NCBI GenBank assembly: GCA_021775005.1
Contig: JAJFIK010000063.1
Coordinates: 1-50,150, forward strand
Direction: 5' to 3'
Length of the DNA stretch: 50,150 nucleotides
Source: Rhodospirillales bacterium
GTDB lineage: Bacteria > Pseudomonadota > Alphaproteobacteria > JAJFIK01
Part shown: piece by piece, positions 8,097 through 48,844 of the stretch
How the letters are laid out: each line of letters opens with the position of its first letter
Position numbering within the stretch: the stretch's first letter is position 1
Notes under the pieces: generated by a model
The model's database searches: none
Told to the model about the DNA's origin: nothing
Seen by the model: the letters and a program-made list of their open reading frames with translations, nothing else
Position numbers and translations under genes: made by a program

Positions 8097-8861
8097 ATGC
8101 ACAATTTTTTAGGAGACGGCAGCGTTCTGGCCATGGCTCATCGTGGCGGTGCCCGTGAAAATCCGGAGAACACCCTTGAGGCATTCGAGCACGCCATAAA
8201 CCTTGGAATTCGCTACATCGAATCTGACGTACAGGCCACCGCCGACGGTGTCTTAGTTATGTTCCATGATTTCACGCTTGATCGCTTGGCGGGTCGGCCT
8301 GGGCGTATTGCTGATCTGAGTTGGGCGGAAGTGCAGGAGCTCAATATTCTTGAGTCTGGGACAGTTCCTCGCTTTGAGGATGTGCTCACGGCGTGGCCAG
8401 AGGTTTGTTTCAATCTCGACGCCAAGACCGCTGACGCCGTTACGCCCCTTTGCCGTTTGATGAATGAGCGCAATTGTTTTGACCGTATTTGTCTGGCCTC
8501 GTTTTCGGATAAAAGCATTACGGCCATTCGTGAGGAGTTGGGCTCGCAACTGTGCACAGCTGCGGCGCAAGGGGAGGGACTACGGTTTATGATGGAAGCG
8601 CGGCTTGGTCTGACCCCGGCACCGCTTAAAGCTGACTGCCTTCAATTGCCCCCCAAGGCTGGCCCACTTTCGATTATCACGCCACGTGTGCTTGCAGCTG
8701 CATCACAGGCGGGCATTGCCGTTCATGCTTGGACTATCGATCAACAAGAAGAAATGCAGCGCTTGCTTGATCTCGGCATCGGCGGGATCATGACCGACCG
8801 GCCAACGCTTTTGATGAGTGTTCTTGAGGCTCGGTCAGCAGGGCAATTGGTGCCCAATTGA
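8097..8861 (+). CDS. glycerophosphodiester phosphodiesterase family protein
   Basis: A 254-aa GDPD-type TIM barrel. The N-terminal LAMAHRGGARENPENT carries the catalytic HR and the metal-binding Glu. ESDVQATADGVLVMFHD follows with the ExD and HD residues. The C-terminal AWTIDQQEEMQRLLDLGIGGIMTDRP is the usual final barrel strand. It hydrolyses glycerophosphodiesters to glycerol 3-phosphate plus an alcohol. No signal peptide is seen, so it is likely cytosolic. I chose ATG 8097 because GAGGA lies four bases upstream and the barrel starts directly after. In-frame ATG 8055 and TTG 8028 would add 14 or 23 residues unlike the family. Confidence 0.85.
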   Translation: MHNFLGDGSVLAMAHRGGARENPENTLEAFEHAINLGIRYIESDVQATADGVLVMFHDFTLDRLAGRPGRIADLSWAEVQELNILESGTVPRFEDVLTAWPEVCFNLDAKTADAVTPLCRLMNERNCFDRICLASFSDKSITAIREELGSQLCTAAAQGEGLRFMMEARLGLTPAPLKADCLQLPPKAGPLSIITPRVLAAASQAGIAVHAWTIDQQEEMQRLLDLGIGGIMTDRPTLLMSVLEARSAGQLVPN

Positions 8862-14234: not shown

Positions 14235-15337
14235 GCATGTACCGCGACTATCTCTCCAGCGCAGAGGAAATCATTGAGGACGCGCGCAACGGGCGCATGT
14301 TCATTCTTGTGGATGCAGAAGATCGCGAAAACGAAGGTGACCTCATCATCCCCGCTCAAATGGCGACCCCTGAAGCGATAAATTTCATGGCTCGGTATGG
14401 CCGTGGACTTATTTGCCTGGCCCTAAGCCAGACCCGCGCCAAGGACCTCGATTTGGAGCTTATGTCGCGCAATAATCAAACGCGGCATCAAACTGCCTTT
14501 ACGGTTTCTATTGAAGCGCGCGAAGGGGTTTCCACTGGCATTTCCGCGCATGACCGCGCGCTGACTATTTCCGTGGCCATTGATCCCACCAAAGCTGCGA
14601 CAGATATTGTGTCACCGGGACATGTGTTCCCGCTGGTTGCGCGGGATGGCGGCGTTCTGGTGCGCACCGGGCATACCGAAGCAAGTGTGGACATCGCGCG
14701 GCTTGCAGGCCTCAACCCCTCAGCGGTGATTTGCGAGATTATGAATGATGATGGCACCATGGCCCGGTTGCCTGATCTAGTAACATTCGCCCAGCTTCAT
14801 GGTTTAAAAGTGGGCACCATTGCGGACTTGATCAGTTATCGCCGCAAGAATGATCACTTCTTGCATCGCGCCATTGAGACCACGTTCGAGACCGAAGAGG
14901 CCGGCACCTTTGATCTTAAGGTCTACATCAACAAGATTGAATACGCCGAACATATCGCGCTGGTAAAGGGCGACCTCTCTGGACCTGAGCCTGTCCTTGT
15001 GCGCATGCATGCCATGAATGTCTTTGAAGACGTGTTGGGCAAAAAGGGCGGCCGCGCGCATCAATTGCAGCGCTCGCTGGAGCTCATCAACGAAGCTGGT
15101 CGCGGTGTTGTCGTGGTCATTCGCGATACCCGCAGCACCGTCGTCTCTGACATGTTACGGGGGCAAAGCGCACAGCCCGGCGACGAGCCGCGCCGCTTGC
15201 GCGAATATGGCGTTGGCGCTCAAATCCTGCTTGACCTTGGCATTCATGAGATGGAACTGCTCTCTAATACACCGACAAAAATTGTAGGCCTTGATGGCTA
15301 TGGCCTTAAAGTCGTAGGACACCGTTCGATCGACTAA
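14231..15337 (+). CDS. ribB: 3,4-dihydroxy-2-butanone-4-phosphate synthase fused to a degenerate GTP cyclohydrolase II domain
   Basis: 368 aa. Residues 1-205 are a complete DHBP synthase: [10 protein letters not shown] (28-37) binds the metal and GHTEASVD (147-154) is the active-site loop. It converts ribulose 5-phosphate to the four-carbon precursor for lumazine. Residues 210-368 align with GTP cyclohydrolase II (the late [14 protein letters not shown] and GLDGYGL are kept). However, the zinc site is gone: where the family has a Cys followed by a CDC-type pair, residues 261-279 contain no cysteine at all. The second domain is therefore predicted not to open GTP, and a separate ribA should exist elsewhere in the genome. 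Such fusions are common in alphaproteobacteria. Confidence 0.93.
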
Positions 15338-17421: not shown

Positions 17422-19539
17422 ATGAGCACACTCTTGTGGGCTGTGATCGCATCAGGACTTCTCGCCATTATCTATGGCGCGATGACCACACGTAGTATTC
17501 TCGCTGCCCCAGCGGGCAATGAGCGCATGCAGGAAATTGCTGCGGCGATTCAAGAAGGCGCAGGCGCCTATCTCAACCGCCAATACACCACTATCGCCAT
17601 GGTCGGCGTGGTTTTGTTTGTAGCGATCATTTTCTTGCTTTCATGGCAAGTAGCCATTGGCTTTGCCATCGGTGCGGTTCTTTCCGGCGCTGCTGGCTAT
17701 GTCGGTATGTTGATTTCGGTCCGCGCCAATGTGCGCACCGCCGAAGCTGCGCGCTCCAGCCTTGCAGCTGGGCTCAATATTGCCTTCAAGTCAGGTGCTG
17801 TGACCGGGATGCTGGTCGCCGGGTTCGCACTTCTGGGCGTTACTGGCTACTACGTGATCCTCACTGAGCTTATGGGCTTTGGCCCTGGTGATCGGATGCT
17901 GGTGGACTCGCTGGTCGCGCTGGGCTTTGGTGCTTCGCTCATCTCCATTTTTGCTCGTCTAGGCGGCGGTATCTTCACCAAGGGCGCAGACGTCGGCGGT
18001 GATATGGTCGGCAAGATCGAAGCAGGCATGGCCGAAGACGACCCTCGCAACCCAGCAGCAATTGCTGACAACGTTGGTGACAACGTGGGCGATTGCGCCG
18101 GGATGGCCGCAGACCTTTTTGAAACCTACGCCGTGACCATTGTTGCGACGATGATTTTGGCGGCGATTTTCTTCGCTAATGCAGAGTATGTAACCAACAT
18201 GATGCTCTATCCCCTGGCCATCGGCGGTACCTGCGTTATTACCTCAATCATTGGTACATTCGCCGTACGCCTCGGCAAAAGTCAGAACATCATGATGGCG
18301 CTTTACAAAGGCCTTATAACCACTGGCGTTCTTTCTGTGATCGCATTGTGGCCGGTGACTGAGTACGTCGTAGGCTGGAACAATGAGTTTACCGTGAACA
18401 GTGCCAGCTTCACTGGTCAGAGCCTCTACTACTGCGGCCTCATTGGTCTTGGTGTGACGGCGTTTTTGATTTGGGTTACCGAGTACTACACCGGGACCAA
18501 CTTCCGTCCGGTGCGCTCCATTGCCGAAGCGTCAGTTTCCGGTCATGGCACCAACGTGATCCAGGGCCTGGCTGTTTCCATGGAAGCCACAGCAATTCCA
18601 GCAATTATTGTTGTGGTTGGCATTATTGCGACCTACAGCCTTGCTGGTCTTTTCGGCATAGCCATTGCGGTATCCACCATGCTGGCCCTTGCTGGAATGG
18701 TTGTCGCGCTTGATGCCTTTGGTCCGGTGACAGATAACGCCGGCGGCATTGCAGAAGGTGCCGAGCTGGAAGAAGGCGTGCGCAAAATTACTGACGCGCT
18801 TGACGCTGTAGGTAACACCACCAAAGCGGTGACCAAAGGTTACGCCATTGGCTCAGCAGGCCTTGGCGCACTTGTGCTCTTTGCAGCCTTTACTGAGGAC
18901 CTGAATTACTTTGCCGGCAACGCGACGGAGTTTCCGTTCTTTGAAGGCGTTGTCGCGGACTTCAGCCTGACCAACCCGTGGGTCATCGTGGGGCTTCTGA
19001 TTGGGGGCATGTTGCCCTACCTCTTCAGCGCCATGAGCATGCAGGCCGTGGGCCGTGCTGCACAAGGAATCGTTGAAGAAGTCCGGCGTCAGTTCAAGGA
19101 AAAACCAGGCATTATGACCGGCGCTGATCGCCCTGATTATGCCCGTGCCGTGGACATGCTCACCAAGTCAGCGATCAAAGAGATGATCGTGCCGTCATTG
19201 CTGCCGGTCCTTTCACCAATCGTGTTGTTCTTTGTGGTGATGTTTGTTGCCGACAAGTCAGCAGCCGTGTCCGCCTTGGGTGCTATGCTATTGGGTGTCA
19301 TCGTGACCGGGCTTTTTGTTGCCATCTCCATGACCGCCGGTGGCGGGGCGTGGGATAATGCCAAGAAGTACATCGAAGATGGTAACTTTGGCGGCAAGGG
19401 TTCTGAAGCTCACAAAGCATCAGTAACCGGCGATACAGTTGGCGATCCTTACAAGGATACAGCCGGCCCCGCGGTGAACCCCATGATCAAGATCGCGAAC
19501 ATTGTGGCGCTGCTTCTGTTGGCGGTGCTTGCGCATTAA
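17422..19539 (+). CDS. hppA: membrane-bound proton-translocating pyrophosphatase, K+-independent type
   Basis: A 705-aa protein with about 16 membrane spans. The pyrophosphate-binding core starts DVGGDMVGK (190-198) and continues with [17 protein letters not shown]. The second acidic cluster near the C-terminus has [15 protein letters not shown]. It couples PPi hydrolysis to proton export across the inner membrane. Residue 468 is Lys in GNTTKA; Lys here (rather than Ala) is the known marker of potassium-independent enzymes. AAAAGGACAT precedes the ATG. It stands alone after a 182-base gap and ends before a strong terminator. Confidence 0.97.
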
Positions 19540-46078: not shown

Positions 46079-46155
46079 GGTCCCATAGCTCAACTGGATA
46101 GAGCAGCTGCCTTCTAAGCAGCAGGTTGCAGGTTCGAGTCCTGCTGGGATCACCA
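46079..46155 (+). tRNA. tRNA-Arg (anticodon TCT), integration target
   Basis: 77 bases. The acceptor GGTCCCA pairs with TGGGATC (one G-U pair), then A and encoded CCA. The anticodon stem GCTGC/GCAGC encloses CTTCTAA, giving anticodon TCT. Its last 46 bases are repeated at 48799-48844, marking it as the attachment site of the following island. Confidence 0.96.
46110..46155 (+). repeat. att-like direct repeat, left copy (in tRNA-Arg 3' half)
   Basis: 46 bases from the anticodon loop to CCA. The copy at 48799-48844 is identical except for one base (G46143 versus A48832). Confidence 0.9.
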
Positions 46156-46218
46156 AAAGTATATTTAAAAACAATTAGTTACAACAAAGAGTTTAATTGA
46201 TTTAGTTCTAGCTAGACA

Positions 46219-46239
46219 GTCTAACCGGAAAAGTTAGAC
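46219..46239. repeat. inverted repeat GTCTAAC-N7-GTTAGAC at the left island end
   Basis: Seven-base perfect arms (46219-46225, 46233-46239). The same TTAGAC/GTCTAA core returns at the right end (48706-48713, 48762-48769). Confidence 0.6.
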
Positions 46240-46330
46240 ACTTTGTTCCTGCTAAGTCCTTGATCTGACTCATTTCCCTGCTGCCCGCCGGTTAGAGGGG
46301 TTTATCTCAGTAGTGGTTGCGAATCGTGTT

Positions 46331-46346
46331 GATACTGTACAGTATC
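46331..46346. promoter_or_regulatory. HipB operator O1
   Basis: GATACTGTACAGTATC is a perfect 16-bp palindrome. It is the most divergent in the core of the four sites (consensus GATACCG-NN-CGGTATC). Confidence 0.7.
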
Positions 46347-46386
46347 AGACCTCGGTGTGGTCTTTCTGTGCACACCCATTTAGTGG

Positions 46387-46402
46387 GATACCGTACGGTA
46401 TC
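46387..46402. promoter_or_regulatory. HipB operator O2
   Basis: GATACCGTACGGTATC, a perfect palindrome (18 bp with flanking G and C), just upstream of the -35 element at 46408. Confidence 0.75.
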
Positions 46403-46407
46403 CTATA

Positions 46408-46436
46408 TTGACATTTTGGAAGCAAGCCCATATATG
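46408..46436 (+). promoter_or_regulatory. promoter of hipBA
   Basis: Consensus TTGACA (46408-46413), exactly 17 bases, TATATG (46431-46436). Operator O2 ends five bases before it and O3 begins immediately after, so bound HipB would block it from both sides. Confidence 0.7.
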
Positions 46437-46452
46437 GGTACCGAACGGTATC
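46437..46452. promoter_or_regulatory. HipB operator O3
   Basis: GGTACCGAACGGTATC, two changes from O2; it covers the predicted transcription start. Confidence 0.7.
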
Positions 46453-46461
46453 ACAAGAGAA

Positions 46462-46477
46462 GATACCGAGCGGTATC
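46462..46477. promoter_or_regulatory. HipB operator O4
   Basis: GATACCGAGCGGTATC, palindromic except at the centre; 25 bases centre to centre from O3, and 32 bases before the hipB ATG. Confidence 0.7.
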
Positions 46478-46509
46478 AAGTTGGTCGCCTAGCCAGATAG
46501 GATAGTAAG

Positions 46510-47358
46510 ATGAGTAACAAGAAAAAGAGCAAAGACAGTGCGGTCACTGGCGGAGTGTTCGGAGAAGATCACTTTGAGCCAATAAACAGGCATCTCACGC
46601 CGGGTGGTTTTTCGGTGTCTGATTTGCCGTTAGATCGCACCCTCAACGCTATCCAGTCATTGAACATGCCCTATAGCGAAACGGATAGAATTTCCAACCT
46701 GCTTGGCAATATTGATCCATTAGGTTCAGTAATGCGTGACCAAATGGGAACTTTGCCACCCACTGAGTACAATTCACTTGGAAGTGTCCTTGGACGGCCG
46801 TCTTACATTGATGAGATTTTTACTCCTGGGTCGTCGTCACTTTCCAATTACAGCCCGGAAGCTCGTATCTCTACGCTCGCTGATGATCTTGCCGCGCAGA
46901 TAACGTCAGCAGGTTTAACGCTTGCTGAAATTGATCCGTTCAAGTCGCTTTTGGCAGACCAAGTGGGAACTTTGCCATCCACTGAGTGCAATTCACTTGG
47001 AAGTGTCCTTGGACGGCAAATTCATGCTGGGGCAAATGATTTTCTTTCTTACGTTGGCTCAGAAAAATATGCACCAAGTTCATTTGATTCTAATGCACAT
47101 GAATATGCGCCCACTTCGAAACCGATAAGCAAGCCTTCGGCAAAAAGTACTCGAATAAAAAATTTGGAAATTTTGGGTTCTATGGTGCGTGCACGACGCG
47201 ATGAACTGGGGCTTTCGCAGCAAGAACTTGCTGACATTGCTGGTGTTGGGCGTCGGTTTATTTCCGAGTTTGAGAGGGGTAAGATCACAATTGAGTTCGG
47301 GAAAGCAATTGATGTCTTGAATGCTTGCGGTATCGATTTGGGTGCAAGCTGCCGATGA
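46510..47358 (+). CDS. hipB: HipB-type antitoxin with a long N-terminal extension
   Basis: 282 aa. Only the last 65 residues (218-282) form the HTH_3 repressor expected of HipB: MVRARRDELGLSQQELADIAGV and RRFISEFERGK. HipB proteins are usually 70-100 aa. The first about 215 residues are Ser/Gly/Pro-rich and contain two copies of DQ-x-GTLP-x-TE-x-NSLGSVLGR (residues 77-96 and 150-169), produced by a 60-bp duplication. The extension has no fold I can recognise. The gene overlaps hipA by four bases (ATGA), the normal coupling of antitoxin and toxin. It should repress its own promoter through O1-O4 and neutralise HipA. Confidence 0.85.
   Translation: MSNKKKSKDSAVTGGVFGEDHFEPINRHLTPGGFSVSDLPLDRTLNAIQSLNMPYSETDRISNLLGNIDPLGSVMRDQMGTLPPTEYNSLGSVLGRPSYIDEIFTPGSSSLSNYSPEARISTLADDLAAQITSAGLTLAEIDPFKSLLADQVGTLPSTECNSLGSVLGRQIHAGANDFLSYVGSEKYAPSSFDSNAHEYAPTSKPISKPSAKSTRIKNLEILGSMVRARRDELGLSQQELADIAGVGRRFISEFERGKITIEFGKAIDVLNACGIDLGASCR
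46738..46797 (+). repeat. 60-bp intragenic direct repeat, copy 1
   Basis: Matches 46957-47016 with three substitutions, in frame, offset 219 bases. It codes the first DQ-GTLP-NSLGSVLGR unit of HipB. Confidence 0.9.
46957..47016 (+). repeat. 60-bp intragenic direct repeat, copy 2
   Basis: Second copy of the repeat at 46738-46797, 57 of 60 bases identical. The near identity suggests a recent duplication or recent gene conversion. Confidence 0.9.
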
Positions 47359-48692
47359 CAATTGAGTTAGATGTGTTTCTTGAAGGATATCAAGAACCAA
47401 TTGGGGTAATTGTTGGTGATGAAATCACGAACAACCTGGAGTTCAAATACAGCGACGCTTATTTAGAACGCGAAGACAATGTGCAGTTATCGCTTTCGCT
47501 GCCGATCCAAGAAAAGGAATACAAGGACTCAGAATGCAAAAGCTATTTCACAAATCTAATACAAGAGAACAACTCGCTTGAGACATTAATTGATCAACTA
47601 GGTATTGATAGAAACAACACTGCCGGCATCCTCTATCACATCGGTGCCGATTGCGCTGGCGCAGTATCGTGCGTCCCAAAGGGTTCACCAGCTCCAAAAC
47701 GTCCGGGAGATCTAAGAACTGACTACGATGTGATCGAAAAGGACCAAATTGTAAAAATCATTCACGAACTGAGCGAATACGGTAGATTGCCGGACGGGAC
47801 GAGAGACCCATCACCCGTTGCAGGCGTTCAACCCAAACTAGCTTGCGTATATACTGGTGGCGTATTTCTCCAACCGAAGCCCGGACTCGGCGTACCTACG
47901 ACCCATCTGCTCAAGGTGGTTAAGCGTGGGAGTATCTTAACAAGTAAGCATGAATCCATTGCGCTCAATGTAGCCAAGTCAGTTGGATTAGAAATTCCAG
48001 ATTTTGTTGAAGGTGACTTTAGCGGAGCGATCTCAACAATCTTGCTAGAGAGATACGATAGAACCTTCGACGGCAGCACAATATCGCGAATTCATCAAGA
48101 AGACTTCGCGCAAGCACTAGGACTCCCTCCGCGCCTTAAATATGAAAGGAATGGTGTGATCGGCCGTCGTTTTGACGCGCGATCCATTGTACGAATTCTG
48201 AAAGAGACAACGGCGCCAGCAATTTCAATGCGCAAATTCATCAAGGCGACCTTTGTAAACCTCGCGCTCGGCAATGTAGACAACCATGGCAAAAACCATG
48301 CGTTGCTGTATCGGAAACCAGGGTATCCGACACTCGCTCCATTTTACGATATCGTACCTACCCGGCTAGACAAGCGATATGCAGATCAGTTCTCGTTCAA
48401 TATTGGGTCAGCTGAGAGAATTGACAATCTGACGCCCGAGGACGTTGCAGAGTTCCTAGGACAATTTGGTTTGAAAGCGAGCCAATCTAAGGCGATACTC
48501 AAAAACGAAGTCAAACCTGCAATTGCCTCAATTTCGGAACAAATCGAACACGTAGCTGCCGACGGCCATAAATTGCTGGCTGACTTGATCGCTCAGAATA
48601 CGTCCTACATCTGCAATATCCTTGAATGGGGTGATATAAAAATACCTGTTCGGGATTTATTCGCGCATGATGTTGGCGGCTGGATCGACTAA
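47355..48692 (+). CDS. hipA: HipA-type serine/threonine kinase toxin
   Basis: 445 aa with the HipA N-terminal couple domain (about 1-100) and kinase core. Lys187 in THLLKV is the ATP-binding lysine. GNVDNHGKN (306-314) holds catalytic Asp309, and PFYDIVPT holds metal-binding Asp332. LERYDR and HQEDFAQALGLP are conserved HipA segments. Family members phosphorylate aminoacyl-tRNA synthetases (GltX for E. coli HipA), causing growth arrest. The P-loop region reads SPVAGVQPK, with Ser153 one place off from the autophosphorylated serine of E. coli HipA. ATG 47355 overlaps the hipB stop. Codon use and A+T content differ from the core genes, fitting transfer. Confidence 0.92.
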   Translation: MTIELDVFLEGYQEPIGVIVGDEITNNLEFKYSDAYLEREDNVQLSLSLPIQEKEYKDSECKSYFTNLIQENNSLETLIDQLGIDRNNTAGILYHIGADCAGAVSCVPKGSPAPKRPGDLRTDYDVIEKDQIVKIIHELSEYGRLPDGTRDPSPVAGVQPKLACVYTGGVFLQPKPGLGVPTTHLLKVVKRGSILTSKHESIALNVAKSVGLEIPDFVEGDFSGAISTILLERYDRTFDGSTISRIHQEDFAQALGLPPRLKYERNGVIGRRFDARSIVRILKETTAPAISMRKFIKATFVNLALGNVDNHGKNHALLYRKPGYPTLAPFYDIVPTRLDKRYADQFSFNIGSAERIDNLTPEDVAEFLGQFGLKASQSKAILKNEVKPAIASISEQIEHVAADGHKLLADLIAQNTSYICNILEWGDIKIPVRDLFAHDVGGWID

Positions 48693-48705
48693 CCAAAGGA
48701 ACGGC

Positions 48706-48769
48706 TTAGACACCCATGCTCTGTAACCCGCAGTTTCCGGTCACATCCCAACTGGCCAAAAGTGTCTAA
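48706..48769. repeat. inverted TTAGACAC / GTGTCTAA pair at the right island end
   Basis: TTAGACAC (48706-48713) and GTGTCTAA (48762-48769) flank 48 bases directly before the right tRNA copy. They share their core with the inverted repeat at 46219-46239. Confidence 0.55.
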
Positions 48770-48798
48770 CCCCCTTGAACCTGCTTACTTTGTTTGTT

Positions 48799-48844
48799 CC
48801 TTCTAAGCAGCAGGTTGCAGGTTCGAGTCCTACTGGGATCACCA
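48799..48844 (+). repeat. att-like direct repeat, right copy (tRNA-Arg 3' fragment)
   Basis: 46 bases equal to 46110-46155 with a G-to-A change at 48832 that breaks a base pair of the T stem. It has no D arm or acceptor 5' half, so it is not a functional tRNA. Confidence 0.9.

Follow-up and report, generated by a model that had tools for sequence, protein, structure and literature searches.

How does a toxin-antitoxin operon come to lie between a tRNA gene and a displaced copy of that gene's 3' end, with no recombination gene beside it? The question is raised by the tRNA-Arg(TCT) locus in a 50,150-nucleotide stretch of DNA from a Rhodospirillales bacterium (the whole stretch is called the window). 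The locus had been described from sequence, in what is here called the original prediction, as a hipBA mini-island inserted by tRNA-directed site-specific integration, and as either a satellite-like cargo or a reduced remnant.

The tRNA-Arg(TCT) insertion and its hipBA cargo

Two copies of the tRNA 3' end in direct orientation bound the insert, and a functional tRNA has been restored, as in tRNA-targeted site-specific integrative elements. The two 46-nucleotide core sequences are 98% identical with a spacing of 2689, and a chance origin is excluded for a one-mismatch repeat that runs from the anticodon stem-loop to CCA. A repeat search recovered the predicted 46-bp copy 2,689 bp downstream, and the ARAGORN call and a reading of the sequence agree with the prediction of an intact left tRNA and a decayed right copy. 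The single change, of a G to an A, turns CCTGC into CCTAC at the cost of one T-stem pair, and because the displaced copy differs by this one base the insertion is not brand new.

Table. Features of the hipBA island in the window, with the tRNA-Lys array of the same genome in the last row. Arm positions are counted from the tRNA 3' end on the left (+) and from the 3' end of the tRNA copy on the right (-).
Feature	Position	Strand	Basis or comparison
Intact tRNA-Arg(TCT), integration target	46079-46155	+	ARAGORN
attL core, anticodon stem to CCA, 3' end of tRNA-Arg(TCT)	46110-46155	+	46-nt direct repeat
Left (proximal) arm, +57, CTAGACAG	46212-46225	.	same position as TTAGACAG at +57 in G334 prophage
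Left (proximal) arm, +79, GTTAGACACTT (contains TTAGACAC)	46233-46243	+	10-mer count; G334 has TTAGACAG at +80
Four GATACYGNNCRGTATC-like palindromes	46331-46346, 46387-46402, 46437-46452, 46462-46477	.	palindrome scan and sequence reading
hipB-like antitoxin, 282 aa	46510-47358	+	Pfam HTH_3 4e-11; TIGR03070 couple_hipB 6.6e-20
hipA-like Ser/Thr kinase toxin, 445 aa	47355-48692	+	HipA_C 2.9e-34, Couple_hipA 4.8e-19
Right (distal) arm, -139, TTAGACAC	48706-48713	+	G334 -138, tRNA-Lys islands -138
Right (distal) arm, -83, inverted TTAGACAC	48762-48769	-	same place in both tRNA-Lys modules
attR core, displaced tRNA-Arg 3' end, one mismatch	48799-48844	+	46-nt direct repeat
tRNA-Lys array, L004 (G000:C81:15000-34999)	copies ~8674-8712, 14485-14525; tRNA-Lys(CTT) 19104-19179

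The 2,643 bp between attL and attR hold two genes, hipB-like and hipA-like, at a GC content of 0.461 against 0.560 +/- 0.016 in segments of the same length from the window (z = -6.2). This composition and the gene and Pfam calls bear out the claim of an A+T-rich interval (GC 46% versus 56%) with a HipBA pair as its sole content, and gene calls and tblastn, which found neither an integrase gene nor a trace of one in the interval, bear out the claim that no integrase is present.

By sequence the pair is a HipBA type II toxin-antitoxin system, with HipA kinase N-terminal and HipA_C domains, catalytic motifs and an adjoining Xre/HipB helix-turn-helix (HTH) protein. The HipA structures 4pu3-4pu5 in the PDB match the toxin at 5.7e-29, with the VAGVQPKL, N-x-D-x-HGKN and YD motifs aligned; the protein is ordinary, and its best plasmid matches (40-43%) are in rhizobia. 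The antitoxin has its HTH at C-terminal residues 221-277 and scores 70.8 bits with TIGR03070 couple_hipB, slightly below the 71.65 cut-off. Missing from the original prediction was its N-terminal extension of ~207 aa (window 46510-47130), which includes an internal 98-nt duplication (46701-46798 / 46920-47017) with the duplicated segment DQ(M/V)GTLPxTExNSLGSVLGR, and for which no match was found in plasmids or profile libraries. Operon order, the overlap of the hipA start with the hipB stop by ATGA, the HTH antitoxin, the HipA kinase motifs and palindromic operators are those of the Y4mF/HipB - HipA family; the extension, with no database match, is the difference. The four upstream palindromes, of the type GATACCG-NN-CGGTATC, are probably HipB operators, by analogy with known hipBA autoregulation. 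The one case in which HipBA is shown to stabilize a mobile element is a Klebsiella plasmid (PMC11487325), and by analogy the toxin may hold the present element in place.

In both congeners tRNA-Arg(TCT) is present with neither copy, hipBA nor motif, an empty site whose exact junction is not alignable at the ~70% DNA identity of these genomes; the genes that follow the tRNA differ between the two. Possession of hipBA and the repeat by all close relatives, which would speak against the original prediction, did not occur, as two of two congeners lack both.

Arm-type sites and the TTAGACA integrases

The motif TTAGACA, which had escaped the original prediction, is present at both ends of the hipBA island. 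On the left, an inverted GTCTAAC (46219-46225) overlaps the +57 site. In the 2.85-Mb genome the 10-mer TTAGACACTT has four occurrences, each at an end of a tRNA-flanked island, either that of hipBA or one of two units at tRNA-Lys(CTT); because a reversed control of the pattern likewise gives four matches, what is notable is where the 10-mer lies, not how often it is found. The distal pair, TTAGACAC-N(30-60)-GTRTYTAA, is found at three places in the genome (control 0), and a covariance model built from these three modules detected no further ones there. By sequence, arm-type sites lie on both sides of the core (shuffle p 0.008).

A counterpart of this arrangement is a 41-kb prophage in the tRNA-Arg(TCT) gene of G334 (loci L095-L098), a genome from an unrelated family within the same class. 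The prophage shares the tRNA gene, the arm motif and the arm positions with the hipBA element, and differs in size and in encoding many more genes, together with its own integrase (366 aa), which adjoins the tRNA. Its repeat GGTTAGACA sits at +57, +80 and -138 around the core, and TTAGACA occurs four times in 43 kb, the fourth inside the element. The two elements have in common the positions +57, +79/80 and -138/139, and coincidence at all three would have a probability of ~1e-5 by a simple placement estimate. Relatives of the G334 integrase, 33% identical over their full length, adjoin tRNA-Thr(CGT) in G042 and G168, where two TTAGACAC repeats lie between integrase and tRNA. Members of the wider integrase family in phages and plasmids carry other repeats, e.g., GTTTTACA and GTTTGCAA, so that the TTAGACA motif appears to be specific to the sub-clade. 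Binding of arm sites by the N-terminal domain of integrases is established for lambda-type systems (PMC2951348), and TTAGACA is best read as the arm-type site of the G334/G042/G168 integrase sub-clade, given its positions in G334, the repeats in G042 and G168, and the other repeats of distant members.

With empty sites in both congeners, and arms that flank both cores in the G334 geometry, the predicted tRNA-directed site-specific integration is strongly supported, and that the integrase belonged to the TTAGACA sub-clade can be called close to demonstrated so far as comparison of sequences allows. In public genome and viral contigs, strict scans for the motif yielded matches at chance level only, without a tRNA; the module has no match in plasmids; searches of viral contigs with the integrases gave no matches; and a pattern of T-arm, spacing and TTAGACAC gave one match, judged to be chance, in 384 other genomes of the class (reversed control ~16). 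An integron attC origin, considered because GTTAGAC/GTCTAAC fit the core consensus, was rejected since the arm order is opposite.

A helper integrase was sought in the host genome, a draft in 97 contigs that is 97.8% complete and contains eight PF00589 matches. Six of these (XerC, XerD, a third Xer and those on C13, C33 and C87) were compared with the G334 integrase and resemble it at most in the shared catalytic region, and a search of the whole genome and the two congeners with the G334 integrase returned nothing at 1e-20. The host XerC, XerD and third Xer (C62), and the plasmid- or IS-like integrases of short contigs, were accordingly rejected as helpers, none falling in the G334 clade. A helper integrase could lie in an assembly gap of the 97-contig draft; present-day activity is unsupported because none is seen in the host genome.

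Other recombinase genes of this genome are recorded here as observations in their own right. The third Xer-type recombinase (L062, G000:C62, 2041-6070) lies next to a relaxase-like gene at a contig end, possibly as part of a mobilizable element. A serine recombinase gene (L083, G000:C46, 8000-9569) stops near a contig end that is the 3' part of a tRNA with a CGC anticodon, and probably belongs to another tRNA-integrated element, cut by assembly. Four short contigs (L014, L015, L016 and L017 on C33, C38, C87 and C13) carry transposon- or plasmid-like recombinases, have odd composition and are possible binning contaminants.

Integrase-less islands at other tRNA sites

The same genome holds two further integrase-less units, in tandem, that the original prediction did not include. 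On contig C81, the tRNA-Lys(CTT) gene has two further copies of its 3' end behind it (C81:29485-29524 and near C81:23675), both of which carry the distal module of the hipBA island at the same distance. One unit has an AraC/methyltransferase/MFS/fatty-acid-hydroxylase set and the other a MerR/RND-efflux set, and in a cassette-like manner the cargo begins almost directly at the tRNA end. Unlike the hipBA island, these units have a host-like GC content (0.58), and no proximal arms are recognizable at them; for both reasons the three islands may lack one common history. The hipBA and tRNA-Lys units have arms in common and cores that are not, which implies either two helpers with similar arm specificity or one with relaxed core choice. 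Tandem cargo units between tRNA-end repeats are also a feature of the additive flexible genomic islands of Methylophilaceae, whose repeats are tRNA-Lys(ctt) ends; the difference is that no arm module is described in the portions of that work consulted (PMC10872708). In one congener the AraC/methyltransferase/MFS operon of the first unit is present (L082, G001:C63, 9620-12789) near the same nar/crp cluster, there in the opposite orientation and not flanked by a tRNA.

When 385 genomes of the class were scanned for the 3' half of tRNA-Arg(TCT), at least five proved to have two same-strand copies on one contig. In all five listed islands, 8-mers common to both ends exceed the shuffled expectation (p 0 to 0.01). 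Larger integrase-bearing islands at the same tRNA gene, which the original prediction had proposed to look for, are represented among the matches listed by the prophage of G334, from another family, and by a 25-kb, P4-type island in G347, whose integrase is near the distal tRNA copy instead of adjoining the tRNA. Three of the five intact islands among the matches listed are small and integrase-less: that of hipBA, a 4.0-kb island in G090 (L091, C39, 2012-6050) with a complete Eco47II-type restriction-modification (R-M) pair, and a 5.1-kb island in G057 (L092, C5, 1683-6885) with a 1015-aa two-partner-secretion protein. GGGTAGCA repeats occur at both ends of the G090 island and ACAATCAC repeats, two per end, in that of G057; these arms are unrelated to those of the hipBA element. 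No tblastn trace of an integrase was found in the C81, G090 or G057 islands. Addiction-type cargo is carried by two of the three small islands among the matches listed, a very small sample.

A probable borrowed integrase and its alternatives

The hipBA element lacks an integrase gene of its own, which sets it apart from autonomous elements, ICEs, IMEs and prophages. It is also distinct from phage satellites and tycheposons, as only hipBA is inside, with no genes for packaging, replication or capsid interference and no recombinase. Its attachment sites match those of the integrase-carrying G334 prophage, spacing included, and this, together with the lack of an integrase, is why movement with a borrowed integrase is probable on the sequence evidence. 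The explanation we favor, with moderate confidence, is that the hipBA unit is non-autonomous and was integrated by a helper integrase acting in trans. Its circular form would have one attP, comprising the core of the tRNA-Arg(TCT) 3' end flanked left and right by TTAGACA arms. A prophage or island outside this assembly would have provided, in trans, a tyrosine integrase of the G334/G042/G168 clade that bound the arms and recombined the core with the part of the tRNA gene between anticodon loop and CCA; the tRNA would thereby have been rebuilt on the left, and its former 3' end have come to lie on the right. As sole cargo, the autoregulated HipBA operon would select against loss of the element. 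The core repeat, the arm sites and their matching geometry, the cargo, the lack of an integrase and the congeners without the element are observed; the helper in trans, excision and transfer, and addiction we infer. The integrase-less islands of G090 and G057, with repeats at both ends, are further evidence for mobile mini-elements.

The principal alternative, which we regard as unlikely though deserving of weight, is a CIME-like remnant: integration of a prophage or island with an integrase of the same clade was followed by a deletion in which everything but attL, hipBA and attR was lost, the integrase included. Deletion of an integrase would leave nearly the same picture, which counts against the helper reading. 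CIMEs (cis-mobilizable elements) are defined in exactly this way, by retention of attL and attR without genes for recombination or transfer (PMC5704250), as is found here with a tRNA 3' end as target; the G334 prophage exemplifies a full-size parent in the same site, and the tRNA-Lys tandem resembles the site-specific accretion of CIMEs. The hipBA element differs from CIMEs in its compact single-operon cargo without trace of a larger parent, and the host genome in having several elements with one end module across two tRNA genes. No integrase fragment, phage gene or other remnant of an ICE or IME is left in the island, and the material searched yielded no larger hipBA-bearing relative. The operon is closely bordered by two intact sets of arms, with hardly any DNA to spare, and the same compact design is seen three times or more in the host genome and, with unrelated arms, in two other genomes; every case would need a tidy deletion ending just before the arms. 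With both arm sets complete, no relic and a recurring compact form, a foreign integrase is favored over later loss. Of the two possibilities in the original prediction, then, the satellite-like cargo is preferred in the form of a trans-mobilized element, and the reduced remnant is retained as its rival.

An origin without any integrase, in which ordinary recombination or duplication produced the tRNA copy or hipBA brought it along, is very improbable: tRNA loci are generally recombination-prone, and no alignment with the congeners is obtained for the flank past the copy, but the prophage-like arm distances on both sides and the tRNA-Lys module would be left unexplained. Scarcely credible is a regulatory or terminator element, or a miniature transposon, placed near tRNA copies by chance, since the TTAGACAC palindromes, two copies of which do make a 62-64-nt imperfect inverted repeat, are absent elsewhere in the genome, fixed in position relative to the tRNA 3' end and without target duplications, and since three other genomes have the same motif in the interval from integrase to tRNA.

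Mobilization by a borrowed integrase would make the hipBA element akin to hitcher genetic elements, non-autonomous DNA with recognition sites for a helper recombinase; in the parts consulted, a review of these names MITEs (dependent on transposase) and CALINs (on integron integrase) and describes no integrase-less mini-element at tRNA sites (PMC11389934). No description of such an element was found among the open-licence papers searched, which is weak evidence of novelty. Tentatively, there may be a MITE-like class of compact integrase-less units, spread by helpers, in which complete tRNA-integrase attachment sites enclose a self-maintaining cargo (toxin-antitoxin or R-M), with tRNA-Arg(TCT) as a recurrent landing site across the class of bacteria (hipBA here, Eco47II R-M in G090 and the two-partner-secretion protein in G057).

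It is important to emphasize that an integrase-less island has here been tied to a specific integrase clade through its arm sites, and not through a neighboring gene, so that the idea of a borrowed integrase is now directly testable with two purified components. The results suggest that many small islands dismissed as decayed for want of an integrase may be hitchhikers, and that toxin-antitoxin and R-M operons can make up nearly the whole of such an element.
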